In this document: in pieces, positions 25,703 through 42,076 of the stretch
Numbering within the stretch: position 1 is the stretch's first letter
How the letters are laid out: each line of letters begins with the position of its first letter
Source: Chloroflexota bacterium
Lineage (GTDB): Bacteria; Chloroflexota; UBA11872
Reading direction: 5' to 3'
Assembly (NCBI GenBank): GCA_022824865.1
Contig: JAJDZD010000065.1
Coordinates: 1 to 64,000, forward strand
DNA length: 64,000 nucleotides
Translations under genes and position numbers: made by a program
The notes under the pieces: model-generated
Databases searched by the model: none
What the model saw: the letters and a program-made list of their open reading frames with translations, nothing else
Told to the model about the DNA's origin: nothing

Positions 25703-26014
25703 ATGCAAGCCAAGAAGAAGAGGCTGACACTGGACCTCGACCCTCCGGTGCAACGGCGTCTGAAGGCGGCGGCCGCGCTCAAGGGAATCAGCATGCGACG
25801 GTACTGCCTGGCCGCGAAAGAGCGGGAACTCACTCGAGACGCGGACAACGGCGCGTTCGCCGGCAGCTTCAACATCGAAGCACTTGTAGCCCTTCAAGAG
25901 GAGGCGTTTGGCGACAAGGTTCTGCCGGACGACGGGATTGAGATCATCCGGGAGGCGCGTGAGTCCAGAAGCGTGGCTGATGACTGGCCTCCATGGCGGA
26001 CCAAGGAGCTATGA
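25703..26014 (+). CDS. Ribbon-helix-helix antitoxin-like protein
   Basis: This 103-residue protein begins with the RHH pattern MQAKKKRLTLDLDPPVQRRLKAAAALKGISMRRY: a basic beta strand, then two helices that would dimerise and bind DNA. The C-terminal about 55 residues are acidic and Trp-rich (DDWPPWR), as in antitoxins whose tail wraps a toxin. AGGGGG lies five bases before the ATG. No toxin gene follows on the same strand, so it is an orphan or a general regulator. Confidence 0.7.
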   Translation: MQAKKKRLTLDLDPPVQRRLKAAAALKGISMRRYCLAAKERELTRDADNGAFAGSFNIEALVALQEEAFGDKVLPDDGIEIIREARESRSVADDWPPWRTKEL

Positions 26015-26049
26015 GAGCCGCCGGAGATCCTTAGAGGACTGTAGACGGA

Positions 26050-26072
26050 CCCATCATTGAGATGCGGGTGGG
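26050..26072. repeat. Short direct repeat, right copy
   Basis: Right-hand partner of the repeat at 25532-25553, in the same orientation about 520 bases away and just after the ribbon-helix-helix gene. Confidence 0.45.
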
Positions 26073-26120
26073 TGTCCCAGGCGAACCTGCAACACCTGCA
26101 TGATTGGTATCGCGCCCGGG

Positions 26121-26492
26121 CTACGCCCTGGGCTCTATGACAACGCGACCACCGCGCTCGACTTCCACAATCAGGTTGTGCCTGTCCAGCATCCGCATAC
26201 CGACCAGAGGAGTGGCGTTGGCGGCGTCTGCCTCCACATACCTCGGCTGACCATCCCACAGCACAGCTATGCCGTAGGAAGGGAGCATTACTTCGCTGCC
26301 GTCAGCCAGGGTTGCCCGGCTCGTACCGCGGAAGTCCAATCCCAACTCCGTCGCCAACAAAGGGGGCACAGTCAGGAATCCGGTAAATCCAGTGTCTATC
26401 ACAGCCTCGATTTCCCTTGTCCGCCCCGCCTGGCCTTGTACGACAATGGTTATCACAGGCTCATAGGCGGCGTTCACCACGCCCTCGATCAC
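26121..26492 (-). CDS. Clan AA retropepsin-like aspartic protease
   Basis: This 123-residue protein has the aspartic-protease active-site motif VIDTGFTGFLTVP (about 31-43), with the catalytic Asp in D-T-G. A flap region GSEVMLPSYGIAVLWDG follows, and then the PLVGMRMLDRHNL segment seen in single-domain retropepsin-like proteins of bacteria and archaea. It would work as a dimer in the cytosol. Its GTG overlaps the stop of the upstream small gene (GTGA), so the two are translated together. Target protein unknown. Confidence 0.8.
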   Translation of the reverse strand: MIEGVVNAAYEPVITIVVQGQAGRTREIEAVIDTGFTGFLTVPPLLATELGLDFRGTSRATLADGSEVMLPSYGIAVLWDGQPRYVEADAANATPLVGMRMLDRHNLIVEVERGGRVVIEPRA

Positions 26493-26806
26493 TCGGCTCT
26501 CCGTAGAGGTCGACCGCCAAAGTGATAGAGCGCCCGACTTCCGACCCGGAGCAGCCAGACGTCAATAGCGCCAGGGCGCTGTGCCCGCAGTTGGTCCGTC
26601 GCGGCAATCACGTTGTCGCCAACAGCCCAACTGCCGCTCTCAACGTCAATTGCGACAACCTCGTCTTGATGATCCGCCTCGACCTGCGGACGAATGTCCC
26701 GCTCGTAAATCTCGTCGCCGAGACGGGCCGTCTCTTCGCGTGGGCGGCGTGGAAGGCCGGCAGCCCTCTCGTCTTGCGCGGTCGTCGAGGTTTCTGCGTC
26801 TGTCAT
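26489..26806 (-). CDS. Small partner protein of the clan AA protease
   Basis: This is a 105-residue soluble protein without a named function. A disordered N-terminus precedes a compact domain containing GDEIYERDIRPQVEA, EVVAIDVESGSWAVGDN and VWLLRVGSRALYHFGG. From memory of such loci, short proteins of this pattern often lie directly upstream of clan AA proteases, which the four-base overlap here supports. The pair may behave like a toxin-antitoxin or protease-substrate module; that is inference. Confidence 0.65.
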   Translation of the reverse strand: MTDAETSTTAQDERAAGLPRRPREETARLGDEIYERDIRPQVEADHQDEVVAIDVESGSWAVGDNVIAATDQLRAQRPGAIDVWLLRVGSRALYHFGGRPLRRAE

Positions 26807-26921
26807 CCGTTCAACCCTCCACCCACACTCTAGTGCTTCGCGGAAGCTGCCGTTGACGTCCCAGGGGACTTGAGCAATGACAGGCCCGCAATGGTGGAGT
26901 CCGTGGAAGAGTCACGATTGC

Positions 26922-26998
26922 TGGTGGGCCCTCGTGGATTCGAACCACGGACCTCGCCCTTATCAGAGGCGCGCTCTAACCGACTGAGCTAAGAGCCC
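26922..26998 (-). tRNA. tRNA-Ile (GAT)
   Basis: A full cloverleaf of 77 bases is read on the minus strand. The acceptor GGGCTCT pairs with AGGGCCC, the anticodon loop is CTGATAA, the T-loop is TTCGAAT and the CCA end is encoded. It is divergent from the tRNA-Ala gene 99 bases away. Confidence 0.95.
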
Positions 26999-27039
26999 GC
27001 GAGCGGCCGGGACACCGGGCCCCAGCGCTGCGATGGGAC

Positions 27040-27090
27040 AGTATACGCCCGCCGCCTGGGGGTTTCAGCGGGCGCGGGCACACGTAGAAT
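27040..27090. promoter_or_regulatory. Divergent tRNA promoters sharing one -35 hexamer
   Basis: TTTCAG at 27063-27068 reads CTGAAA on the other strand. To the left, CTGAAA is followed after 17 bases by TATACT (27040-27045, minus strand) for tRNA-Ile. To the right, TTTCAG is followed after 16 bases by TAGAAT (27085-27090), seven bases before tRNA-Ala. Both -10 boxes are strong, and the -35 is weak but shared. Confidence 0.55.
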
Positions 27091-27097
27091 CGCGACA

Positions 27098-27173
27098 GGG
27101 GACGTGGCTCAATTGGTAGAGCATCGCCTTTGCAAGGCGGGGGTTGGGGGTTCGAGTCCCCCCGTCTCCACCA
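27098..27173 (+). tRNA. tRNA-Ala (TGC)
   Basis: A full cloverleaf of 76 bases: the acceptor GGGGACG pairs with CGTCTCC (one G-T pair), the anticodon is TGC within CTTTGCAAG, the T-loop is TTCGAGT and the CCA end is encoded. TAGAAT lies seven bases upstream, so transcription may start very close to the mature 5' end. Confidence 0.95.
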
Positions 27174-27300
27174 AACTGGTAGGAATCAAGCATCTCTCGG
27201 CCGTGAGGTTTGTCCTGGACCCGTCCAATGGCACGAGTCGCACCCAGCCGGGGGGACACCCGCGTCTACAGTTGGGGCGGCCGGTTTTCGGGCAATCCCA

Positions 27301-28320
27301 TTGAAGGCAACGTATTTCCTCACCACCCAGCCGGGCTGGGCCTTTGCCACGCTGCGAGAGTTGCGGGGCCTCGGCGTCGCAGCCCGCGTGGCTTTTCACC
27401 ACCGCGACTCCTCCCTCGTTGCGCCAGCGGCGCCGGTTCTCGAGTCCGTGCGGCTTCAGACCCCTGCCACCGTCCATGGCTCGCTGGCAGAGTTCAGTAC
27501 GACTCGGCGATCCGACGCGGCCCAGGAAATGGCGCGGCGTCTCGACAGCGCGCGTCTGAAGAATTCCGTGCTCCGGTGGCTGCCGCTCGCCGAGAGGACG
27601 GTCGTCCGCCGTTTCTCTATGACGACCGAGCTCTATGGGCGCACGTCCATACGCCGGGATGAGCTTGACCGGCTGGTGAGCGGCGCCGTGGCCGCCGCCT
27701 TTCCCAGATGGCGACGATCCGAGCGCGACGGCATTCGCCTGCTGTGCAAGGCCGACGCCAAAAAGGCAGTGCTTGGCTTGCAGCTGTACAGCAACCTGGG
27801 CGGCGAGCGGGACGGGCGGCCCGGCAGCCTGCGACGCCACCTCGCCTGCGGGCTGCTTACGGTGGCGGGCGTGCGCGGCGGAGACACGGTGTTCGATCCC
27901 TTCATGGGCACAGGCACCATCCTGGGGATGGCGGCCGACAGGTACGGTGCGGCGCTCGGGATCGGACTTGAGGTGGATGGCGATGCCTACCTTTCCGCCT
28001 GCACAAGGCTTGCGGACCGCCGAACGGTTCTGGCCAACGCGGCGTTCGAGGAGTTCGACTACACGTCGCTGCCCGCCCGCTGCACGCTTGTCTCTAACCT
28101 GCCCTTCGGGGTCAGGTTTCCCACGGTGCGGACCGTTGCGCTGCTGCGGCTCCTGAGGCGTCGGGAGCTCAGCGGCTCACCGGCCGCGTTGCTGCTTTCC
28201 CGTGCTCAGGCCGACCGCCTGGAGGCCAGGTCCAGGATGAGGCGCAAGAATGTCCTGGTGCTCGGCCAGCCGGCCAGCATTCTCCACCGAGGCGCCTTGA
28301 CGCAGCGAAGCACAGCATGA
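27301..28320 (+). CDS. THUMP/UPF0020-type RNA methyltransferase
   Basis: This protein of about 339 residues has a C-terminal SAM-dependent methyltransferase of the Trm14/TrmG10-like (UPF0020) class. FDPFMGTGTILGMAA is motif I, and SNLPFGVRF is the catalytic [ND]-P-P-[YF]-like motif IV in its NLPFG form. The N-terminal part is compatible with a ferredoxin-like/THUMP RNA-binding region. The open frame extends back into tRNA-Ala, which cannot be coding, so I place the start at TTG 27301 (MKATYFLTTQPGWAF). Likely target is a guanosine in tRNA or 23S rRNA. Confidence 0.75.
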   Translation: MKATYFLTTQPGWAFATLRELRGLGVAARVAFHHRDSSLVAPAAPVLESVRLQTPATVHGSLAEFSTTRRSDAAQEMARRLDSARLKNSVLRWLPLAERTVVRRFSMTTELYGRTSIRRDELDRLVSGAVAAAFPRWRRSERDGIRLLCKADAKKAVLGLQLYSNLGGERDGRPGSLRRHLACGLLTVAGVRGGDTVFDPFMGTGTILGMAADRYGAALGIGLEVDGDAYLSACTRLADRRTVLANAAFEEFDYTSLPARCTLVSNLPFGVRFPTVRTVALLRLLRRRELSGSPAALLLSRAQADRLEARSRMRRKNVLVLGQPASILHRGALTQRSTA

Positions 28321-28560
28321 GCTCCGGGGATCGTCTTGGCAGGCACGCAGGCTACGTCCGCCGTTGCCGCTCAAGCCGCGCTTCGATCCTCTGAATCACA
28401 GAGCGCAGGCGCGGAGGCCTCGCGTTAGGGTTCTTGCCGCAGAAACTCGAGTTCTTCGGGTAGCTCACGCTCTTGAATCGAGGGACGGAGATGCTGCCAC
28501 AACGGACCTGGACCGACGCCGTGCTACGGTGCCGGGGTTGGCGTTGGGGGTGGATGCTTG

Positions 28561-29013
28561 ATGGACCTGACGAAGGACGTGCCTCGGAGCGGGTACGAGA
28601 AGCTGGGCGGGATTGGGTTTCTGCCGCGCTCGATCGATAAGGGCCGTGCCGACCTGGCCGGCACAATGGGCGAGTACGTGGTCCGCTGGGGACGCACCGA
28701 GCGCATGTGCGATTTCCTGGGGATCGAGACCGATGCGTTTATCGAGTCGCTGCGCACCCGTCCGACGGACGAGGAGGTGCTGGCCTGGGTGCAGGAGCAC
28801 ATGCAGCCGCGCACGGCGGCGGAGATCGATGACTTCAACCGGGAAATGGCCACGGACGAGCCGCGCGAAGGCTCAAACTGGGATTGGCCGAGGTTCAGGG
28901 AGTTCCTGGAGGAGTGCGGCCAGGGGCACCGGACGGATATCCGGCGGCACTATGACCGGCTGGACCTGGATGAGGGCCGCGAGGTTCCGCAGGGCGGGCG
29001 GACGGACTGGTAG
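28561..29013 (+). CDS. DUF5069 family protein
   Basis: This 150-residue soluble protein matches the DUF5069 pattern: an N-terminal RSGYEKLGGIGFLPRSIDKGRADLAGTMGEY segment and a helical middle ending EVLAWVQEHM. No enzymatic motif is evident and no function is known. The ATG at 28561 is preceded by GGGTGG. The 240 bases before it hold no gene that I can support. Confidence 0.8.
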   Translation: MDLTKDVPRSGYEKLGGIGFLPRSIDKGRADLAGTMGEYVVRWGRTERMCDFLGIETDAFIESLRTRPTDEEVLAWVQEHMQPRTAAEIDDFNREMATDEPREGSNWDWPRFREFLEECGQGHRTDIRRHYDRLDLDEGREVPQGGRTDW

Positions 29014-29110
29014 ACGCCGCGCAGCGGCAGGTGCGCCCCCGAACCTGAAGCCAGTCGCGTAGCCGAATAAGATCGGCCGCCCGCTCTTTGCCCCTAGTTC
29101 GCTGCTTGAT

Positions 29111-29767
29111 CTGAGTTTTTTCCAGCGACCGGTCGACGCGGTGGCGCGCGAGCTGATTGGGTGCGTGCTGCGGCGATGGCTGGATGGGCTGTGGTTGGGC
29201 GCGCAGATCGTGGAGACGGAGGCTTACGGGCTGGACGACCCGGCGAGCCATGCGCACCTGGGACGCACACCCAGCCGCGAGCCGATGTGGATGCCGCCGG
29301 GGACGATTTACATGTATCACTCGCGGGCCGGGGCGTCGCTGAACGTGAGCTGCGGGACGGGGCCGGAGGCTGTGCTGATCAAGGCGGGAGTGCCGATCGT
29401 GGACGAGCGCTCGCCGCAGGCCGCGCTGGATGCGATGCACCAGTTGAATCCGGCGCCGGATGGCCGATCGCGGCGTGCGGATCGGCGGCTGTGCGCGGGG
29501 CAGACGCTGCTGTGCCGAGCGTTGGGACTGACGGTGGCGGGGTGGACGGGGCGGCAGTTCGATCCGAAGCGGTTCTACATCGAGGCCAGGAAGGCGCGGC
29601 CGCACATCATTTCCACATTGCGTCTCGGTATACGTCCCGAGCGGGACGACGGCAGGCGTTCGCGCTATGTGGACCGCGACTTTGCCGGTTCAGCCACGAG
29701 CAATCCGTTGCGGCGCGGGGCGGTGGCCGGGCGCGATTACTGGGAGATCGACCCCGAGGAGGGTTGA
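29111..29767 (+). CDS. 3-methyladenine DNA glycosylase, AAG/MPG type (CTG start proposed)
   Basis: This protein of about 218 residues excises alkylated and deaminated purines. It has the catalytic-glutamate region AQIVETEAYGLDDPASHAH, the tyrosine loop GTIYMYHSRAGASLNV and the GPEAVLIKAG strand of the AAG family. The first canonical start, GTG 29141, cuts off the conserved FFQRPVDAVARELIGC helix. In-frame sequence upstream supplies it, but only CTG codons (29111 or 29102) are available before the preceding stop. I give 29111 as the better match to family N-termini. Confidence 0.8.
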   Translation: MSFFQRPVDAVARELIGCVLRRWLDGLWLGAQIVETEAYGLDDPASHAHLGRTPSREPMWMPPGTIYMYHSRAGASLNVSCGTGPEAVLIKAGVPIVDERSPQAALDAMHQLNPAPDGRSRRADRRLCAGQTLLCRALGLTVAGWTGRQFDPKRFYIEARKARPHIISTLRLGIRPERDDGRRSRYVDRDFAGSATSNPLRRGAVAGRDYWEIDPEEG

Positions 29768-29778
29768 GCCCCGGGCTC

Positions 29779-30708
29779 CTAGGCAGGCGGGGCGATGGCC
29801 CGGAGGGTGGCGAGTTCGTCGTCGCTGAGCGTGAGGTCGGCGGCGGCGGCGTTGGCGCGGACTTGCTCGGGTGAGCGGGCGCCGGGGATGGCGCAGGTGT
29901 TGGCCGGGTGAGCGATGGCGAAGGCGAGGGCGAGCTGGGCCATGCTGCGGCCTTCGCCGGACATCGGGCGCAGGGCTTCGGCCGCGGCGGCGCGCTCCAG
30001 GAAGCGCTGTCGGGCGTCGCCCGTATTCCAGCCGGATCGGGTGGGGTCTTCGAACCGGTGGTCGGACGCGAACTTGCCGGCGAGCACGCCCTGGGCCAGA
30101 GGACCGCGGACAAGGACGCCGATATTGCGTTCCTGGCAGAGCGGCAGGGCGTCGGTTTCGTAGGTGCGTTCGATCACGCTGTAGGGAATCTGGGCGACGT
30201 GGCAGCGCCCGTGGGTGTCGAAGTACTCGATTTCGCTTGGGATGAAGGATGACGTGCCGTAGGCGCGGATTTTGCCGGCTTCCAGCAGGCGCTCGAAGGC
30301 TTCCAGGAACACATCGTGGCGCGGGTGCTCACGGATGTGGCACTGGTAGAGGTCGATGTAGTCGGTTTGCAGCCGGTGCAGGCTGGCGTCGCAGCAGGCG
30401 TAGATGTGTTCGGGCGTGGTGAAGCTGAGCGGGTGGCCATCGGGCCGTCCCAGGTTGCCGACCTTGGTGGCGACGAAGACGTGCGGGCGCCGGCCGCCGG
30501 CGAGGGCCTTGCCGAGGATCTCCTCGCTGCGGCGCGGGCCGTAGGCGTCGGCGCTGTCGAAGAGGTTGATGCCGGCCTGGATGGCGGCATGCACGGTGGC
30601 AATGCCGTCGGCTTCGGAAACCGCGCCCAACTGCCCGCCAAGCTGCCAGCAGCCCAGGCCAATGGCCGAGACGCGCCAGCCGGTTCGTCCGAATACGCGG
30701 TATTGCAT
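29779..30708 (-). CDS. Aldo/keto reductase
   Basis: This 309-residue NADPH-dependent oxidoreductase of the AKR fold begins YRVFGRTGWRVSAIGLGCWQ. It has the catalytic region LFDSADAYGPRRSEE (Asp and Tyr), a lysine in FVATKVG, and YIDLYQCHIREHPRHD with its catalytic histidine. The C-terminal NADP-binding GARSPEQVRANAAA is present. I selected the ATG at 30708 because the longer frame adds unrelated residues. Physiological substrate unknown; sugar or aldehyde reduction is plausible beside the neighbouring dehydrogenase. Confidence 0.88.
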   Translation of the reverse strand: MQYRVFGRTGWRVSAIGLGCWQLGGQLGAVSEADGIATVHAAIQAGINLFDSADAYGPRRSEEILGKALAGGRRPHVFVATKVGNLGRPDGHPLSFTTPEHIYACCDASLHRLQTDYIDLYQCHIREHPRHDVFLEAFERLLEAGKIRAYGTSSFIPSEIEYFDTHGRCHVAQIPYSVIERTYETDALPLCQERNIGVLVRGPLAQGVLAGKFASDHRFEDPTRSGWNTGDARQRFLERAAAAEALRPMSGEGRSMAQLALAFAIAHPANTCAIPGARSPEQVRANAAAADLTLSDDELATLRAIAPPA

Positions 30709-30838
30709 GGGAGTGTTCCTACGGGCGCAAATAGGGCTTGGCGTCAACCTTACCGCCCACGCAAGCCGCCCGACTAAGTTTGGGCGCGAACCGCAGGTTA
30801 GGGCATGATGCGCGCGGCCTTCGACTGCTGAACTGCCC

Positions 30839-31843
30839 GTGCCAATCACAACGTCTCAGGTCGTGTTTCTCGAAGGCGGCGCTGTCGCGATCGAGGATGT
30901 CGAGATTCCCGATCCGGCGCCGAACCAGATCCTGGTGCGCTCGACGCGGTCGCTGATCAGCGCGGGGACTGAACTGAACATCCTGGAACTGGCCGAATCG
31001 GAGCGCGGTGAGCCCGGCTACTCGATGGTTGGCGAGGTGGCCGCGGTTGGCGGTGCCATTGCAGGCTATGCCGAAGGCGACCGCGTGCTGACGTATCTGA
31101 AGCACCAGGGCGCCGGGCTCGTCACCGTCGACCCGGACCTGCCGGATGAGGCCACCTACGCGGGGCACATACCGGACGACGTCAGCGATGAAGACGCCAG
31201 TTTCGTGGTGCTGGGGGACGTGGCGCTGCATGGCGTTCGACGGGCGCGACCGGGGCTGGGCGACTCGGTGGCAGTCTTTGGCCAGGGCGGACTAGGGCAG
31301 ATGGTGACGCAATTCGCGCGGATGGCCGGCGCGTATCCGGTGATCGCGGTTGACCTGCTGGACGAGCGGCTTGAACTGGCCCGGTGGTCGGGCGCGACGC
31401 ACACGGTGAACGCTCAGCGCGAGGACGCCGTGGCGGCGGTTCAGGACATTACGGGCGGCGGCGCGCGGGTGGTGTTCATGGTTACGCGCACGCCGAAGAT
31501 CCTGCCGGACTGCATGAAGGCGGCGGCCGGAGGGACCGTCTCAATGACCGGCAGCCCGCCCGGCACCGTGGAGATTGGCCTGCAGGTGGAGTTGCTGCGC
31601 AAGGAACTGTCGATCATCGGCACGTATCAGTCGATGTACCCGCGCGAGCCGTATCACATGTTCCAGTGGACGCGCGCGGCCAACCGGCAGTACATCCTGG
31701 ACTCAATGGCACGCGGCGAGTTCCGGGTCGACCGGCTGATTTCACACCGCGAGCCGTACACGAACGCCGCGGACCTGTATGACATGATTCGACGCGGCCC
31801 AGACGGATGGTTGTCGATCATCCTGCAGTGGGATCAGGCCTGA
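30839..31843 (+). CDS. MDR-superfamily zinc-type alcohol dehydrogenase-like protein
   Basis: This 334-residue medium-chain dehydrogenase/reductase has an N-terminal GroES-like domain (QILVRSTRSLISAGTEL; PGYSMVGEVAAVG). Its Rossmann domain has VFGQGGLGQMVTQFARM (about 142-158) and a C-terminal LDSMARGEFRVDRLISHRE. The classical catalytic Cys/His zinc ligands are replaced (SAGTE), as in the large group of short MDR proteins acting on sugar alcohols or aromatic substrates. Its C-terminal 40 residues resemble the decayed sequence at 32669-32812, showing that this gene was once duplicated. Confidence 0.85.
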   Translation: MPITTSQVVFLEGGAVAIEDVEIPDPAPNQILVRSTRSLISAGTELNILELAESERGEPGYSMVGEVAAVGGAIAGYAEGDRVLTYLKHQGAGLVTVDPDLPDEATYAGHIPDDVSDEDASFVVLGDVALHGVRRARPGLGDSVAVFGQGGLGQMVTQFARMAGAYPVIAVDLLDERLELARWSGATHTVNAQREDAVAAVQDITGGGARVVFMVTRTPKILPDCMKAAAGGTVSMTGSPPGTVEIGLQVELLRKELSIIGTYQSMYPREPYHMFQWTRAANRQYILDSMARGEFRVDRLISHREPYTNAADLYDMIRRGPDGWLSIILQWDQA

Positions 31844-31956
31844 GACGACTGGAGCCCGAACCACTACCGCGGGCGAGTGGCTGAGCGAACGACGCGCTCC
31901 GACGTCCGCGCTACGCCCGGAGGCGTCCTCCAGATCCTCCGAGCAGGTGTCTATGA

Positions 31957-31978
31957 TGGTCCGGGATAGTACGGACCA
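31957..31978. promoter_or_regulatory. Inverted repeat before the membrane-protein gene
   Basis: TGGTCCG and CGGACCA form a perfect 7-bp inverted repeat separated by eight bases, 15 bases upstream of the ATG at 31994. It overlaps a TATGAT hexamer at 31952-31957. It could be an operator or a short leader hairpin. Confidence 0.35.
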
Positions 31979-31993
31979 AAAGAATGACGGGCC

Positions 31994-32668
31994 ATGGGAC
32001 CGAATTCGGTAAACAAGCTGGAGGCCCTTGGCCTGGTTGTGGGCCCGGTGCTGGCGCTGATCTTCTTCGCGATTGAGCCGGGGGGAATGTTCATCCAGCC
32101 CGCGGACTCGACCGACCCGGCAGCGACCATCACAGCCGTGGCGTCAAACCCGAACATTGCGCGGGTTACGGCTCTCATGGTGCCGCTGGGCCTCATCCTG
32201 ATGCTTTACGGGTTGTCCGGCATCAGCCGGGTCATGCGGCCGGACACCATGGCGGCCGCCTTGTCACGGCTGGGCATCCTGTTTATGAACGTGGGCGCCT
32301 TTGGCTGGATTCTCACCTCGGGGCTGACCTTCATCTTGACCAGGACCCAGCTCGACGCGGCGCAGGGGCTTGAGTCAGCCATCCCCATCTACATGGTGGA
32401 TTCGGGGATGAGCATGTTGTCGAGTTTGGCCGTCGCCTCCGGATTCATGGCCTTCAACCTGGGCCTGTCAGCCATATACCCGCCCGGATCCCTCAGGATC
32501 ACGGCCCTGGCAATTGCAGCCGTATCGGTCATCTGCCTGATCGCGGTCATCATCGGGAATACCGTGCCCGACCGGACGATGATCACGGTGTCCAGGATCT
32601 GCTACTTCCCGTGGGTGGCCTGGAGCGTGGTTCTTGGCGTGCGGTTCCTCAAGGGACGCAATCTTTAA
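31994..32668 (+). CDS. Unknown six-helix membrane protein
   Basis: This 224-residue inner-membrane protein has about six hydrophobic segments (near 9-27, 57-75, 92-112, 136-160, 166-188 and 200-217). An extracytoplasmic loop after helix 1 is rich in Asp/Ala. It resembles the DUF4386-type helical bundle in overall layout, but I do not recognise a defining motif. It lies between an intact MDR gene and a decayed MDR remnant, so it may have been inserted when that region was duplicated. Confidence 0.65.
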   Translation: MGPNSVNKLEALGLVVGPVLALIFFAIEPGGMFIQPADSTDPAATITAVASNPNIARVTALMVPLGLILMLYGLSGISRVMRPDTMAAALSRLGILFMNVGAFGWILTSGLTFILTRTQLDAAQGLESAIPIYMVDSGMSMLSSLAVASGFMAFNLGLSAIYPPGSLRITALAIAAVSVICLIAVIIGNTVPDRTMITVSRICYFPWVAWSVVLGVRFLKGRNL

Positions 32669-32812
32669 CGCCAGTTTCGGTTGGACGTCCTCACGGGTGA
32701 GTCCTGGACGACGCCTGCGAACGACGCCGACCCGTATGCCATGATTTGGCGCGGTCCGCAGGGCTGGCTATCGGCTTTCGGACGTGGGGCGACGCGTAAG
32801 GAGGATTGCTGA
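32669..32812 (+). pseudogene. Remnant of an MDR dehydrogenase C-terminus
   Basis: In frame from the TAA of the membrane-protein gene the sequence encodes QFRLDVLTGESW, then DADPYAMIWRGPQGWLS, ending at a TGA that overlaps the ATG of the next gene. This aligns with the C-terminus of the MDR protein at 30839-31843 (FRVDRL..., AADLYDMIRRGPDGWLS) with matches at F, R, D, L, Y, M, I, R, G, P, G, W, L and S. No start codon or upstream domains remain. Confidence 0.7.
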
Positions 32813-33168
32813 TGGCGCTGCCGACGTTCTACTTCAAGAGCACCTGAACGAGTTGCCGGAAGGCCCGTGCGGCCTTGAACGCGACCGGGATGGACTATGA
32901 GCCGCGCGATTACGCGCGCAAGCCGTTGACCGAGGACGATATTCGAGCGATTGCGGGACCGCATGCACTCCGAGAAGTCATGAACCCACGCAGTCCGTCG
33001 TTCCGCAAGCTGGGGATCGAGCGCGACAGCATCGACGACGCGCAGGCGCTGGAGTTGATGCTGGGCAACCAGAACCTGGTGCGGCGTCCCACGCTGGCCG
33101 CGGGCGACGTTCGAGTCTTCGGGTTCGACGCGGACGCGTACGAGGAACTGGCCGGCGCTGAAGCGTAG
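32812..33168 (+). CDS. Probable selenoprotein, Spx/ArsC family (in-frame UGA = Sec12)
   Basis: Read through the TGA at 32845-32847, the frame gives 118 residues, the usual length of Spx/ArsC-family proteins. The N-terminus reads FYFKSTUTSCRKARAAL, where U replaces the first redox cysteine of the family's CxxC (compare CTSCRKAR of Spx), giving U12-x-x-C15. The rest is typical: YEPRDYARKPLTEDDI, ALREVMNPRSPSFRKLG and NLVRRPTL, the last two matching the conserved arginine regions. AAGGAGG lies seven bases before the ATG, and a SECIS-like hairpin follows the TGA. Reading from TTG 32875 would remove the whole active site. Probable role: thiol/selenol redox enzyme or arsenate-reductase-like protein. 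A nonsense mutation is the alternative. Confidence 0.8.
32860..32876 (+). promoter_or_regulatory. Bacterial SECIS-like hairpin
   Basis: AAGGCC (32860-32865) pairs perfectly with GGCCTT (32871-32876) around the five-base loop CGTGC. The G at loop position two, followed by T, lies about 20 bases after the TGA, inside the spacing expected for bacterial SECIS elements in which SelB recognises a G (often GU) at the loop. It lies inside the coding sequence, as all bacterial SECIS elements do. Confidence 0.65.
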
Positions 33169-33221
33169 GCGCGCCGTCGGATATCCTCACGTTCCCGCAG
33201 CATTCATATCTGGAGGTCGCC

Positions 33222-33926
33222 GTGGCCCTGACCCAGGCGCAGCTTGACGAACTTCGCGAGATCGACACGCCGACGATTCTGAACGCCATTGAGACGTTCG
33301 ACGTCCGGCCCAACACGCTGGGGTTCACCGGAACCAACATCCGCTACCTGGCCCCGGACATGGGCGTGATGCTGGGCTACGCCGTCACCGCGCTGGGCGA
33401 CACCATGAGCGAGGACGCACCCAAGAGCCCGGACGGCATGTTCCAGATGTGGGAGGCCGTGGACGAAACGCCGAATCCGGTGGTGCTGGTGATCAAGGAC
33501 TTTGGCGACGACCCGACGCACTCCGTGCACGCGGGCGACGGGATGGCCACCCTGGCCCACGTGTTAGGCGCCGACGGCATCGTGACCGACGCGGCTCTGC
33601 GCGACCTGGAAGGCGTGAAGGGCGCCGGCATTAAGCCGTTCGCGCGCGGGCTGGCGCCTTCGCACGCGAACAATCGCATCATCCGCGCTCAGGTGCCTGT
33701 GGCGATCGACGGCATGGACGTGAATCCCGGCGACCTGGTGCACGGCGACGAGAACGGCATCTGCACGATTCCGATTGAAATCGCCGACAAGGTCGCGGCG
33801 GCGGCGCACAAGATCCTGGAAGGCGAGGAAGCCACGCGCCTGAGCTACCTGGAGCCCGGCTTCAACCTGGACGACTACGCCAAGCAGCGAGGCCTGACGC
33901 GCAAGGACCCGTCGCGCGGGTTCTAG
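33222..33926 (+). CDS. RraA-like / HMG-aldolase-family protein
   Basis: This 234-residue protein of the RraA/4-hydroxy-4-methyl-2-oxoglutarate aldolase fold shows the early LREIDTPTILNAIETFDVRP helix, the GDGMATLAHVLGADGIVTDAALRDLEG core with conserved G-x-x-x-A-x-x-x-G-x-x-G and R-D, and the C-terminal VNPGDLVHGDENGICTIP metal/substrate site. The GTG start has GGAGG six bases upstream. In catabolic settings these are usually aldolases or oxaloacetate decarboxylases rather than RNase E regulators. A strong terminator follows. Confidence 0.88.
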   Translation: MALTQAQLDELREIDTPTILNAIETFDVRPNTLGFTGTNIRYLAPDMGVMLGYAVTALGDTMSEDAPKSPDGMFQMWEAVDETPNPVVLVIKDFGDDPTHSVHAGDGMATLAHVLGADGIVTDAALRDLEGVKGAGIKPFARGLAPSHANNRIIRAQVPVAIDGMDVNPGDLVHGDENGICTIPIEIADKVAAAAHKILEGEEATRLSYLEPGFNLDDYAKQRGLTRKDPSRGF

Positions 33927-33942
33927 CCCACTCCGGCCAGAA

Positions 33943-33992
33943 GAACTAAACCGCCCCGCGTTTCCGATGGGAAACGCGGGGCGGTTTAGTTC
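33943..33992. terminator. Bidirectional intrinsic terminator
   Basis: A perfect 23-bp stem closes on a four-base loop (GATG). The arms begin with A-rich and end with T-rich stretches (AACTAAACC / GGTTTAGTT), so it can terminate transcripts from both the RraA gene and the convergent YkgJ gene. Confidence 0.85.
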
Positions 33993-34040
33993 CAACTTCC
34001 GGACGCCGTTGAGGGAGAAGAAGCTCAAACGGCTGGCGAC

Positions 34041-34796
34041 CTACCGCTTGCCCGGGAAATCGTCCCGGGTTACTACCGGGTAGGTTCGTTCGGCACTGAG
34101 CGGTGTCGGCTGCTTGGCCAGATCGCCCGAGGCCGTGCGATTGCGCAGCAGGTGGATGGCGAGCAGCGTGTAGAGCCCGTCCTCCGAGTTCTGGCGGCCG
34201 CCCAGTTCGAAGTACTTGGGCGACATGATGGACATGTCCTCCAGCGGGATATCGGTGGTGGTGCGCTCCTGCTGGCGGAAGCGGCCTGCAAAAACCTCGC
34301 AGATCATGGCGTTGCCGCTGGGCATGCGCGCTCGACCGTAGGCTCGGCAGACAAACGGGCGGACCGGGTAGACCTCGCAGCGGTTGTCGGGTCCCAGCAT
34401 GGGGCAGCGGGTCACCTCGGTGCGGAAGCCCTGGCCGACGGCGCGAACGAAGGCTTTCGGCTGCTTGTTGCGCATCTTGAGCCAGCGGCTGAGCGGATTG
34501 CCGTATTGCTCCACCTGGTCGGTGACCCGCTTGTAGATCGTCAGGCGCTGCTCCCTGGTCAGGTTCTCGCGCATCCAGTCGTGGATCAGCGCCCACTCCT
34601 GTTCGCCGGCCAGCACCTGGTGCATGCAGCAGCGCGCGCACCCCTTTTGGCATTCGAGGATCGGATTGTCGCGGACCACAACCTCAGACCAGCCCTCCAT
34701 GGCGTCATAGAGGTCGGGCAGGCTTGCGGCTGACTCGGCCATGCGCGAGTAGAACGCATGCAGGTCAATGGTCTCCGGCGAGGGCTTCTCGGCCAA
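34041..34796 (-). CDS. YkgJ-family cysteine cluster protein
   Basis: This 251-residue protein has the metal-binding cluster CQKGCARCC (C49, C53, C56, C57) and later cysteines in RCPMLGPDNRCEVYPVRPFVCRAYG, the full pattern of the YkgJ/UPF0153 zinc- or iron-chelating family. Its start is a TTG. Function is unproven in this family, and iron-sulfur or zinc binding is expected. It is a single gene between a bidirectional terminator and an SDR gene. Confidence 0.85.
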   Translation of the reverse strand: MAEKPSPETIDLHAFYSRMAESAASLPDLYDAMEGWSEVVVRDNPILECQKGCARCCMHQVLAGEQEWALIHDWMRENLTREQRLTIYKRVTDQVEQYGNPLSRWLKMRNKQPKAFVRAVGQGFRTEVTRCPMLGPDNRCEVYPVRPFVCRAYGRARMPSGNAMICEVFAGRFRQQERTTTDIPLEDMSIMSPKYFELGGRQNSEDGLYTLLAIHLLRNRTASGDLAKQPTPLSAERTYPVVTRDDFPGKR

Positions 34797-34887
34797 TGTT
34801 TGGTGGTCCAGTCAGGGCTTGCCTGAAGTATGGCAACTCGGGGGCGACTAATTCGACTGGTTCCTGGACGCGTCCGGCGTATCGGTC

Positions 34888-35778
34888 TCAGTTGACCGGC
34901 GTGTACGAGCCCCAGTCCGGTCGCCGGCCGTCCACATCGTCGATCTGGTAGACCTTGGCCATATCCCAACTGGTGAGCGCCTGGCCGGCGTAACGGTTGA
35001 CTTTGGGATCGGCGGCCAGCGCCGCGACGACCCGACCGAGGAAACGGGGCGTTTCCGAGACGGCGAAGTCGACGTCCTGTTCAATGGCGTCGCGCCAGGT
35101 CGCCTCGGTCACGCCGAAGTGGTCCAGCATCCACTCGGAGCGCAGGAAGCCGGGTGTGATTGCCAGCGCCGTAATACGGTTTTCGTCGTTGTGCTCGCGG
35201 AGCTCGTGGTCGAAGGCCAGCGCCAGACGCATCGCCGTGGTCTTGACCAGGTCGTAGTAGAGCTGGCCCCGGTAGCGCAGCGTATTGCCGTCCGTGACCT
35301 CCACGACCAGGCCTTGGCCGTGCTCGAGCATGAGCGGCAGGGCGAAGTGGCTGGTGATGATGTGCGAGTGAATCGCCTGACGGAGCAAAAGCAGCCCATC
35401 CTCCAGCGACTGCTCCCAGAAGCGACGGCCCCAGGCGATCATGTCTTCGCCGCCCCAGATGTCATTGACCAGGATGTCCAGCCGGCCGGCTTGTTCGTTC
35501 CGGATGCGGGCGATGAGAGACTCGACCTGCGCCGGTTCGGTGTGATCGACTTGAACCGCGATACCCAGTCCGCCCGCAGTATCGACCAGTTCGGCGGTCT
35601 CCTCGATTGTTTCCGGCCGCTTCATGGGCGACTGGTGCCGACGCGTCGTACGGCCGGTGCAGTAGACCGTGGCACCAGCGGCGCCGAGCTCGACAGCGAT
35701 GCCGCGTCCGCAGCCGCGGGTGGCACCGGCGACAAGAGCGATTTGGCCGCGCAGCGGCTTGGGCTGCTCAATCGTCAT
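34888..35778 (-). CDS. Short-chain dehydrogenase/reductase
   Basis: This 296-residue classical-type SDR has the cofactor motif VAGATRGCGRGIA (TGxxxGxG variant) and NADP-type YCTGRTTRR. The NDIWGG motif replaces NNAG, and the active site is YYDLVK (Y-x-x-x-K). A C-terminal extension includes WDMAKVYQIDDVDGRRPDWG. The family often acts on steroids, sugars or polyketides; the substrate here is unknown. It lies just downstream of the rRNA operon on the same strand, about 90 bases after 5S, and could receive read-through transcription. Confidence 0.88.
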   Translation of the reverse strand: MTIEQPKPLRGQIALVAGATRGCGRGIAVELGAAGATVYCTGRTTRRHQSPMKRPETIEETAELVDTAGGLGIAVQVDHTEPAQVESLIARIRNEQAGRLDILVNDIWGGEDMIAWGRRFWEQSLEDGLLLLRQAIHSHIITSHFALPLMLEHGQGLVVEVTDGNTLRYRGQLYYDLVKTTAMRLALAFDHELREHNDENRITALAITPGFLRSEWMLDHFGVTEATWRDAIEQDVDFAVSETPRFLGRVVAALAADPKVNRYAGQALTSWDMAKVYQIDDVDGRRPDWGSYTPVN

Positions 35779-35869
35779 GGTCTGGTTGCGAGCATGTCAC
35801 ACGGCAATCGCGACTCATGGCAAGACACGGCAAGCTTGAGGGGCGAACGACTGTGGATGAGTGGATACG

Positions 35870-36019
35870 GACGCGGCGTCAGGTTTCCCGGCAACGGGCT
35901 ATTTTCCCACCGGGTTGCCCCGGCAGTATTGTCGCTGCTGACGAACTTAACGACTGTGTTCGGGATGGGAACAGGTGTGGCCTCATCGCATAGGTCACCG
36001 GGAAACCTGACGCCGCGTC
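35870..36019 (-). other. 5S rRNA processing stem
   Basis: The 22 bases at 35870-35891 are perfectly complementary to 35998-36019 and enclose the 5S gene. This is the long stem from which 5S rRNA is cut. Confidence 0.75.
35885..36003 (-). rRNA. rrf: 5S ribosomal RNA
   Basis: About 119 bases on the minus strand with the universal 5S core: CACACCTGTTCCCATCCCGAACACAG in loops B and C, GTTAAGT downstream, and terminal helix sequences that pair. It lies about 50 bases after 23S. Ends are estimated from helix pairing. Confidence 0.92.
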
Positions 36020-36051
36020 ACGCAAAGCTGCACTATTGCCGACCTAACAGC

Positions 36052-39133
<3,082 letters not shown>

Positions 39134-39185
39134 CTCCGTTAGGCCGGCAAAACTGCAGCTTTACGCATTCGCGTAAATCTTCACT

Positions 39186-39191
39186 TGTCAA
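39186..39191 (-). promoter_or_regulatory. -35 box of the 23S-5S operon
   Basis: A consensus TTGACA on the minus strand lies about 50 bases upstream of the 23S 5' end. No good -10 is obvious at 16-18 bases. Its presence just before the 23S gene supports independent transcription of 23S-5S. Confidence 0.4.
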
Positions 39192-39402
39192 GGTTCGCAG
39201 CCGAAACGCCTGGGCGAAGGCTGAGGGCCGCGCGCAGATTGCTCCGCGGGGCAACGACCCATCATAGGCGAACGCGCGCGACCGGTCAACGGAACTTCCG
39301 CATTCCGCCACATTCCGATCGACCATTTGACCGTGGGCGTGCCCGCCGATCGGGCGTGCGGACCGCGTCAACGCGTCGGCCGCACCTTCGGCGGCTCAAG
39401 CA

Positions 39403-39434
39403 CCGAGGCCCGGCGCCTGCGCGCCGGGCCTCGG
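39403..39434 (-). terminator. GC-rich hairpin after the solute-binding protein gene
   Basis: A perfect 14-bp stem (CCGAGGCCCGGCGC and complement) with a CTGC loop lies about 40 bases after the stop at 39473. It separates this gene from the rRNA promoter. No T-run follows. Confidence 0.55.
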
Positions 39435-39472
39435 AAAGTGCGACCGCAGGGCGGTCGTCTGCTAAGGCTCGC

Positions 39473-40993
39473 TTACAGAGCCGGGAAGCCGAACTTCTGG
39501 CGCGCCGCGTTGAGCTGGTCGCGCTGCGAGTCCAGGGTGCTGGAGACCCACTTCTCGGCCCCCGAGATGGCCTCGTCAACCGAGACGTCACCCAGGTAGG
39601 CAGCGGAGATGAAGGCGTTGCGCCACTCATTCATTTCCCACCAGTTGGGCAGGGCCATCATGAGGTGGCGGCTCTCCGGCGCGTCGGCGTAGCGCTGCAG
39701 CCACTCCATGCCGTCCGGCGGCGGGTTGGTCGCGCTGGCGTCGTTGAACGCGGTCTTGATCATCGGCAGGTGACCGCGGTCGATCGCCACGCGGCCCTGG
39801 TAGACCGCGCTGCCCAGGAAGACCGTCAGGTCAACGGCCTCTTCAATCGTGCCCAGGCGAATGGCGCCATTGGTCACGAGGTTCGGCTGGTCGTTCCAGG
39901 AATGCACCTCGAAACCCTCCGGACCGATGGGCATGGGGCCCAGCGACCAGGAGAAGCGGTCCTTGATGCGCGGCACGTGGAAGCCGGACGAGTAAACGCC
40001 CGAGCCCAGCCACGACCACACCTTGCCGGAGGCGAACGGGTTGCCGAATTCACCCGACACCCGCTTGCTCTCGCCGTCCGGGAACGACACCCCGGTGTCG
40101 TGAATCATCCCGACGGAGAACTTCAGGCCCCAGTCGCCGCCGTTGTCGAACACAGCCAAGCCGGTTTCGTCGGCGTTGCGGTAGGCCAGGCCTCCGGAAC
40201 CGAAGCACATGGGCGCCCACTGGAACTCGTAGTCGTTACGCGCCCACGAACCCCACTCGTCGGTGTCCGGATTGGTTGCCTTCCTGGCCGATTCCAGGTA
40301 GTCCTCGGCATACGTCCAGCCCTCGCTCGGGAACTCGATCCCGGCCTTCTCGCCCAGGTCCACATTCATCAGAATGCCGCCGGTCGCGCCCTGGAAGGGC
40401 ATGCCGAACTGGTCACCCTCGATGACGGTCGGAACCGAGCCGCCCTCACCATGGGCGTGGTCAAAGTTGACCGTGTAGAGGTCGGGGATGAAGTAGTACT
40501 CGTCGACGTTGTAATCGTCGCGCTTGGCCAGGACATCGTTGATCTGGGTGAAGCCGCCGTCGGCAACGAAGGCGCCCAGCATCCCGCCGTCCAGCATCGC
40601 CACTTCCGCCTGCGTGCCGGCCGCCATCTGCAGCGGGAACGTCTCGCGGTAGTCCGCGGGCTGCGGCTCGAAGCGAATGTTGATGTTCGGTCGCGACTTG
40701 GCGTACTCGCGCAGACCCCACTGCATGGCCGCGCCACGCGGGCCGGAGGTGTGGTCGCTAACGTAGCGGACTGTGACCGTCTCGGACTGCGGAGCTGCCG
40801 CCATGGCCGGAGCCGGAGCTTCCGTCATCGCCGGAGCGGCGGTTGCCGCCGGCGCCGCGGTTGCCGCAACGGCTGCCGGTGCGGGTTCAGGTTCCGATTC
40901 GCCGCAGGCCGCCAGTACTGCCGCCGCGCCGATGCCCATTGCGCCGGCGCCTGCCGCGCGGAGCGCCGCACGACGGCTCAGTGCCTTTCGCAT
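39473..40993 (-). CDS. ABC transporter extracellular solute-binding lipoprotein
   Basis: This 506-residue protein has a Tat-type N-region (SRRAALRAAG, Arg7-Arg8), a hydrophobic stretch and a lipobox LAAC with Cys30. A low-complexity Ala/Pro linker (about 35-70) precedes a family 1-type solute-binding domain with FPLQMAAGTQAEVAMLDGG and FGMPFQGATGGILMN. These suggest a sugar or oligosaccharide ligand and anchoring outside the membrane. GAGGAGG lies before the ATG. The permease and ATPase subunits are not adjacent, so it is an orphan binding protein here. Confidence 0.9.
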   Translation of the reverse strand: MRKALSRRAALRAAGAGAMGIGAAAVLAACGESEPEPAPAAVAATAAPAATAAPAMTEAPAPAMAAAPQSETVTVRYVSDHTSGPRGAAMQWGLREYAKSRPNINIRFEPQPADYRETFPLQMAAGTQAEVAMLDGGMLGAFVADGGFTQINDVLAKRDDYNVDEYYFIPDLYTVNFDHAHGEGGSVPTVIEGDQFGMPFQGATGGILMNVDLGEKAGIEFPSEGWTYAEDYLESARKATNPDTDEWGSWARNDYEFQWAPMCFGSGGLAYRNADETGLAVFDNGGDWGLKFSVGMIHDTGVSFPDGESKRVSGEFGNPFASGKVWSWLGSGVYSSGFHVPRIKDRFSWSLGPMPIGPEGFEVHSWNDQPNLVTNGAIRLGTIEEAVDLTVFLGSAVYQGRVAIDRGHLPMIKTAFNDASATNPPPDGMEWLQRYADAPESRHLMMALPNWWEMNEWRNAFISAAYLGDVSVDEAISGAEKWVSSTLDSQRDQLNAARQKFGFPAL

Positions 40994-41230
40994 AAATCCC
41001 TCCTCGCGCTCCCATGTACAACTCGACGTGGATTTCGGAGCGCGTTTTTACCAAGAGCGCATGGTACCGACTGGCGGCGACGTTCGTCATCGCTTCAGCG
41101 GAACGTCGGCTCGAGCATCCGCCGCCGACCCGACGAGTCCCAACACGATGGGTTAACGACGCACCCGGACGGCACACGTACACTCTCGACATCTTCCCGA
41201 AGGCCCGAAGCTGTCGAAGGACACGCCGCT

Positions 41231-42076
41231 ATGCATCTGACTCGCGCGGAGGCGGTTGAGAAACGCGACCAGCTCGTAGACGACGGATATACGGTCATTC
41301 CAAAGGTCGTCGCCGAGCCGATGCTGGACGAATTGCGGGTGTGGACCGAGAACTACTTCGCCACCCACGAGGTCGACCCGAAGTACCGCTACCAGGGCAG
41401 CGACATCCAGGTAATACCGCCTGATCGCTGGGACGAGCGGCCGCGGGAGCTGTCGGAGCGAGTGTTCCCTGACCCCATTGCCGAGCGCTTTTTGGCCTAC
41501 CCCGAATTGCGAGCCGCGTGTGAGGCCATTCACCTGGAGGACCTGACGCCCTCGGGCGGCATCATCATTCTTTCAAAGCCCCCGAAAGGACCACCGCTGT
41601 ATTGGCACCAGGACTTCATGAACTGGGAAAGCCCCGAAGCGGCGACACCCTGGCCAACCAAGGTCTTCCTCTCCGTGTATCTGACCGATACGACCCTGGC
41701 GAACGGCTGCCTGCAGGTGATTCCGGGAACGCACACCAAGCGGATCGAGTTGCACGACACGCTGCCGGACGCCCACGAGGCCGATATCCAGGCCGTTGAC
41801 GATCACGAAGACCATGCGGCATTCGCCGAGCACCCGGACGCGGTCGACCTTCCGGTGAGCGCCGGTGACCTGATAATCGCCGACGCCCGGGTGATGCACG
41901 CGGCGCGGGCCAACACCACCGACGCGCGGCGCACGCTGGTGCTGGCCTGGCACGATGTCTTTCCCTTCCCCAACGCACCCTCGTGGTGGAACCGACCGAT
42001 TCCCGATGAGATCCGTGACGCGGACTTAACGGCAACCTATGAGAGCCGACGAAGACCGACGGCATACATTCGGTAG
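41231..42076 (+). CDS. Phytanoyl-CoA dioxygenase (PhyH) family protein
   Basis: This 281-residue Fe(II)/2-oxoglutarate-dependent oxygenase has the iron-binding H126-x-D128 in YWHQDFMNW, a distal His223 in DARVMHAARANTTDARR and a 2-oxoglutarate-binding Arg234. LANGCLQVIPGTHTK is the typical double-stranded beta-helix strand. Such genes are greatly expanded in marine and sponge-associated Chloroflexota and act on diverse small molecules. The substrate is unknown. The frame is open far upstream, but family similarity begins only at this ATG. Confidence 0.9.
   Translation: MHLTRAEAVEKRDQLVDDGYTVIPKVVAEPMLDELRVWTENYFATHEVDPKYRYQGSDIQVIPPDRWDERPRELSERVFPDPIAERFLAYPELRAACEAIHLEDLTPSGGIIILSKPPKGPPLYWHQDFMNWESPEAATPWPTKVFLSVYLTDTTLANGCLQVIPGTHTKRIELHDTLPDAHEADIQAVDDHEDHAAFAEHPDAVDLPVSAGDLIIADARVMHAARANTTDARRTLVLAWHDVFPFPNAPSWWNRPIPDEIRDADLTATYESRRRPTAYIR

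Follow-up and report, generated by a model that had tools for sequence, protein, structure and literature searches.

A small redox protein from an uncultivated member of the Chloroflexota very probably has a residue of selenocysteine (Sec, the 21st amino acid) in its active site. Its gene lies at positions 32812-33168 of the window, by which we mean the whole 64,000-nucleotide stretch of DNA analysed here, and codon 12 of the gene is an in-frame UGA. The probability that the gene encodes a selenoprotein with Sec at this codon is estimated at about 0.93. We infer the actual insertion of Sec from the agreement of several kinds of evidence: conservation of the TGA, presence of the Sec machinery, exchange of Cys and Sec among homologues, and a hairpin downstream of the codon.

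Reading frame, hairpin and selenocysteine machinery

The elements of the gene are as follows.

32798-32804, forward strand: Shine-Dalgarno sequence AAGGAGG, seen in the sequence ahead of ATG 32812
32812-33168, forward strand: predicted selenoprotein gene (ArsC/YffB/Spx fold), 118 amino acids with Sec12, stop codon TAG 33166-33168; found by translation through TGA and by Pfam ArsC
32845-32847, forward strand: TGA read as Sec, first position of UTSC (CxxC); invariant in the family, TGT or TGC in four homologues of the phylum
32860-32876, forward strand: SECIS-type hairpin with a 6-bp stem (AAGGCC/GGCCTT) and a 5-nt loop (CGTGC); supported by fold, synonymous freeze and covariation

The frame runs from the ATG through codons 1-11 to the TGA and from there stays open to the TAG, the TGA being its sole interruption. 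The product reads MALPTFYFKST-U-TSCRKARAALNATGMDYEPRDYARKPLTEDDIRAIAGPHALREVMNPRSPSFRKLGIERDSIDDAQALELMLGNQNLVRRPTLAAGDVRVFGFDADAYEELAGAEA, with the N-terminus MALPTFYFKSTU-TSCRKARAAL. The conventional ORF has 97 amino acids; gene callers would mis-annotate the gene by starting at TTG 32875, with loss of the active site. The first-pass annotation had described this arrangement from the sequence: an ATG with a ribosome binding site, 11 codons, a TGA in the place of the first Cys of CxxC, a continuous frame, a misplaced TTG start, and a perfect 6-bp hairpin with G-T in its loop at the spacing of a bacterial SECIS. All of this is confirmed.

The hairpin begins 13 bases 3' of the TGA and consists of AAGGCC (32860-32865), the loop CGTGC (32866-32870) and GGCCTT (32871-32876). 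The published bSECIS model allows a stem of 4-16 bp, a loop of 3-9 nt with G in one of its first two positions, a distance of 16-37 nt from the UGA and a minimum free energy of -7.5 kcal/mol or lower (PMC13188914). The window hairpin lies within these limits, with 6 bp, 5 nt, a UGA-to-loop distance of 18 nt and -9.1 kcal/mol; G is the second loop base and is followed by U. By folding energy alone it does not stand out (z of -1.4 for the core and -1.7 for 48 nt), and about 10% of recodings with synonymous codons are as stable as the native hairpin. Since folding energy is weak (z about -1.5), conservation and covariation were used as evidence. In the window's clade, synonymous diversity falls to 0.05 at codons +5 to +10 after Sec, as opposed to 0.42 elsewhere (P=0.001). 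Covariation within this clade amounts to one compensatory change, from G-C to A-U, in its one divergent stem (L042). Among 20 distantly related Sec homologues, the corresponding stem contains 23 double-changed paired cells versus 8.4 in shuffles (0/500); it is shifted a few nucleotides downstream, and the loop G is invariant. A search of the hairpin region against Rfam gave no match, as expected because bacterial SECIS elements vary greatly.

The window's genome has the Sec machinery that the first-pass annotation had proposed to look for, including the selB and tRNA-Sec whose absence it had named as a refutation. It contains selA (513 bits, cut-off 268), selB (352 bits, cut-off 242), selD (372 bits, above the family cut-off) and tRNA-Sec (71 bits; called tRNA-Sec with anticodon TCA by ARAGORN). 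Among the Chloroflexota genomes, selA is present in all 41 that bear the TGA and in 280 of 359 others (Fisher P=7e-5, with kinship ignored). It was not matched in G190, the genome of one Cys form (L065). SelB and Sec-tRNA(UCA) would decode the UGA at codon 12 as Sec, guided by the hairpin that starts 13 nt after it. As a separate observation, the selD gene (L026; G000:C59:9536-10462) has an in-frame TGA of its own, in GAG-U-ACK, and SelD of this genome is predicted to be a selenoprotein itself.

Conservation of the TGA codon and competing readings

Within the family, 17 of 19 genomes have the gene, with identities down to 50%, and every carrier (17/17) has the TGA; the 16 carriers besides the window's genome show the same kind of frame and codon. 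Ten of the TGA loci come from separately deposited Chloroflexota MAGs. No copy was detected in the other two family genomes, so the gene may be dispensable. An alignment profile search of 400 Chloroflexota genomes returned 46 homologues, whose active-site codon is TGA in 41 and Cys in four (TGT in L064; TGC in L065, L076 and L082), the outcome that the first-pass annotation had expected to support Sec. The remaining one (L078, in G259) was left out; its TGA is out of frame with the rest, by a frameshift or an assembly error. Three of the Cys forms, L064/L076 and L065, branch within the Sec clade of the tree. Both the residues 5' of the TGA (YFKST-U and equivalents) and the UxxC motif are retained over a range of 49-95% protein identity. 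Cys paralogues were sought in the same class with TIGR01617, and only the single known gene per genome was recovered. One locus near a contig end (L037 / L007, at the contig edge of G008) is wholly unlike its relatives 5' of FKST-U, which is probably an assembly junction.

A sequencing or assembly error would turn the gene into one for an ordinary Cys protein, with TGC or TGT as the true codon. Cys does occur at the Sec12 column in homologues, and the sequences are metagenome assemblies. An error is nonetheless extremely improbable and is excluded because the TGA recurs in independent assemblies: the identical codon stands in the 10 separately deposited loci, in all family carriers and in the 41 homologues across the phylum, and every TGA-bearing genome has selA. 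The first-pass annotation had named such an error at 32845-32847, and an unconserved region upstream of the TGA, as findings that would undo its reading. Neither was found, and the upstream residues are kept down to 49% protein identity. That conservation also bears on the idea of a pseudogene or truncated gene, in which the TGA terminates translation and at most the 97-residue TTG-start ORF is made, the very ORF that gene callers would call. A decayed gene is excluded because both flanks of the TGA are conserved. Moreover, a Shine-Dalgarno sequence precedes the ATG or GTG starts, the synonymous freeze covers the hairpin, and random decay is absent in 41 genomes; we regard this reading as very improbable. 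A genome in which TGA generally codes for an amino acid such as Trp or Gly would account for a TGA within a conserved frame; this reading has a negligible probability. It is excluded because TGA serves as a normal stop codon in the rest of the window, where it ends 12 of 37 long ORFs, including the adjoining MDR gene. In addition, the residue replaced is Cys, and the genome has a complete Sec machinery.

Fold, function and gene neighbourhood

The selenoprotein belongs to Pfam ArsC PF03960 (57.3 bits, cut-off 24). Its closest NCBIfam model is TIGR01617 Spx/MgsR, at 71.8 bits below a cut-off of 75.05, which is exceeded by L053, L057 and L066, relatives at a greater distance. The structure model (pLDDT 91.8) places the UxxC motif at the start of helix 1, and its best PDB matches are YffB (1rw1) and Spx (1z3e). 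The first-pass assignment to an Spx/ArsC family thus stands for ArsC and not for Spx, which is a fold relative, YffB being equally close. The protein is probably a thiol-disulfide-type oxidoreductase with a Sec/Cys pair, as judged from fold and motif. The 118-residue thioredoxin-fold product of the ArsC/YffB/Spx superfamily would act as a thiol oxidoreductase. Its selenolate would attack the oxidised substrate, with Cys15 as the resolving residue and a selenenylsulfide as the intermediate.

Two other functions were considered. Because TIGR01617 is the closest model and Spx structures rank among the top matches in fold, the protein might be an Spx-type regulator that binds the alpha-CTD of RNA polymerase rather than an enzyme. 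This is unlikely in view of the score below the cut-off, the equally good match of YffB and the chain length (118 residues versus 131-132 in Spx). Furthermore, in an alignment with 3l78, the loop that carries Gly52, the alpha-CTD contact of Spx, is shortened by two residues in the window protein and lacks a Gly at the corresponding place. A genuine arsenate reductase would agree with membership of the Pfam ArsC family, with the alignment of catalytic Cys12 of E. coli ArsC to Sec12 and with retention of Arg94. However, arsenate-binding Arg60 and Arg107 are replaced by Asn and Phe (the triad columns read N, R, F), and the TIGR00014 score is 30 bits (cut-off 106). With two of the three arsenate arginines missing and such a score, this function is quite unlikely; ars genes are also absent among the neighbours tested.

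The Sec gene is flanked by the following features.

30839-31843, forward strand: MDR zinc-binding dehydrogenase, conserved upstream neighbour; Pfam ADH_zinc_N; ends in TGA as an ordinary stop
31994-32799: membrane-like ORF of 224 amino acids between the MDR and Sec genes (coordinates include the copy of the MDR tail)
33222-33926, forward strand: RraA-like protein, conserved downstream neighbour within the genus; Pfam RraA-like and synteny

The MDR gene adjoins the Sec gene on its upstream side in 14 of 14 family loci run by tblastn, and the RraA-like gene lies 3' of it within the genus. In L004, L008 and L009, the stop codon of the MDR gene and the Shine-Dalgarno sequence overlap (TAAGGAGG), which implies translational coupling. 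The Sec gene is probably co-transcribed with the MDR dehydrogenase and, in relatives, translationally coupled to it; we also infer a functional link of the Sec protein to the MDR enzyme. The 224-residue ORF in the window has no Pfam or NCBIfam match. Downstream of it, the MDR 3' end is repeated in degenerate form; both the ORF and this repeat are absent in L004, L008 and L009. The segment 31994-32799 looks like an insertion with a tail duplication in which the Shine-Dalgarno sequence was kept. Outside the family, no conserved partner gene was found by tblastn with the window's neighbours or in the ORF lists around the loci. As neighbours differ there, the MDR link is lineage-specific.

Several other features of the region were observed. 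A putative metal-chelating protein with CxxCxxCC (YkgJ-type) is encoded at 34041-34796 on the reverse strand. Its gene is a further conserved neighbour of the Sec gene at most loci of the family and occurs twice in G003 and G006. The 23S and 5S rRNA genes lie at 35886-39134 on the reverse strand, and a 977-residue frame (39143-42076, forward strand) is directly upstream of the 23S gene. No 16S rRNA gene was found in 26000-39300 of the window. With this frame beside the 23S gene and no 16S gene nearby, 16S and 23S appear to be unlinked. The genes for tRNA-Ile(GAT) and tRNA-Ala(TGC), usually located in the rRNA spacer, stand alone at 26922-27173, divergently oriented and away from the 23S gene.

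Relation to known systems

Chloroflexota appear to use Sec in this redox family, whose known members are mainly Cys proteins. The alternation of Sec and Cys, together with the missing selA in one Cys-bearing genome, offers a natural test of the benefit of Sec in the ArsC/YffB fold, a superfamily in which the non-arsenate members have no settled substrate. The window protein scores 41.5 bits with NF041106 and the relatives tested at most 50, below its cut-off of 85; therefore, they look like an unmodelled subfamily, which may coincide with the GOS 'Arsenate reductase 2' proteins. We tentatively propose an uncatalogued Chloroflexota subfamily of the ArsC/YffB fold in which Sec prevails and is perhaps ancestral, Cys forms arose once Sec decoding had been lost or had fallen out of use, and the Sec protein forms a dedicated redox pair with MDR in the family. 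The papers retrieved contain no description of this ArsC-like Sec subfamily in Chloroflexota. A new family model would mend the annotation in many Chloroflexota genomes, as NF041106 does not cover the gene.

UxxC ArsC-like selenoproteins are a kind already known, as the first-pass annotation had suspected in calling the family perhaps not wholly new. 'Arsenate reductase 2' selenoproteins (cd03032, UxxC), with 42 Sec sequences, are among the families in the Global Ocean Sampling (GOS) survey (Zhang & Gladyshev 2008, PMC2398784). As described there, they resemble the window protein in having UxxC at the same site and an ArsC/Spx-type domain, and they are from marine bacteria. In the same text, 'Arsenate reductase (ArsC) 1', corresponding to TIGR00014, likewise combines the ArsC fold with Sec in the catalytic position; it is of the true ArsC type with UxxS and no resolving Cys, whereas the window protein has UxxC and lacks two arsenate arginines. 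NF041106 ArsC_rel_Se_1 is listed as 'Arsenate reductase-like protein' with UxxC (PMC13188914). It shares with the window protein the superfamily, the UxxC motif and the mixed Sec/Cys type of family, and differs in the scores given above. A search of 251 Chloroflexota genomes with this model, run without a positive control, gave no match at E<=1e-12.

The closest structural relatives are YffB (PA3664, PDB 1rw1; E. coli YffB) and Spx (1z3e, 7f75), which resemble the window protein in fold, length and the Arg-Pro motif. Both use Cys where the window protein has Sec. The motif is CxxC in Spx, whose chain is longer than that of the window protein, and CDTI at the corresponding place in E. coli YffB. 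YffB also carries Asn at the position of ArsC Arg60, as does the window protein.
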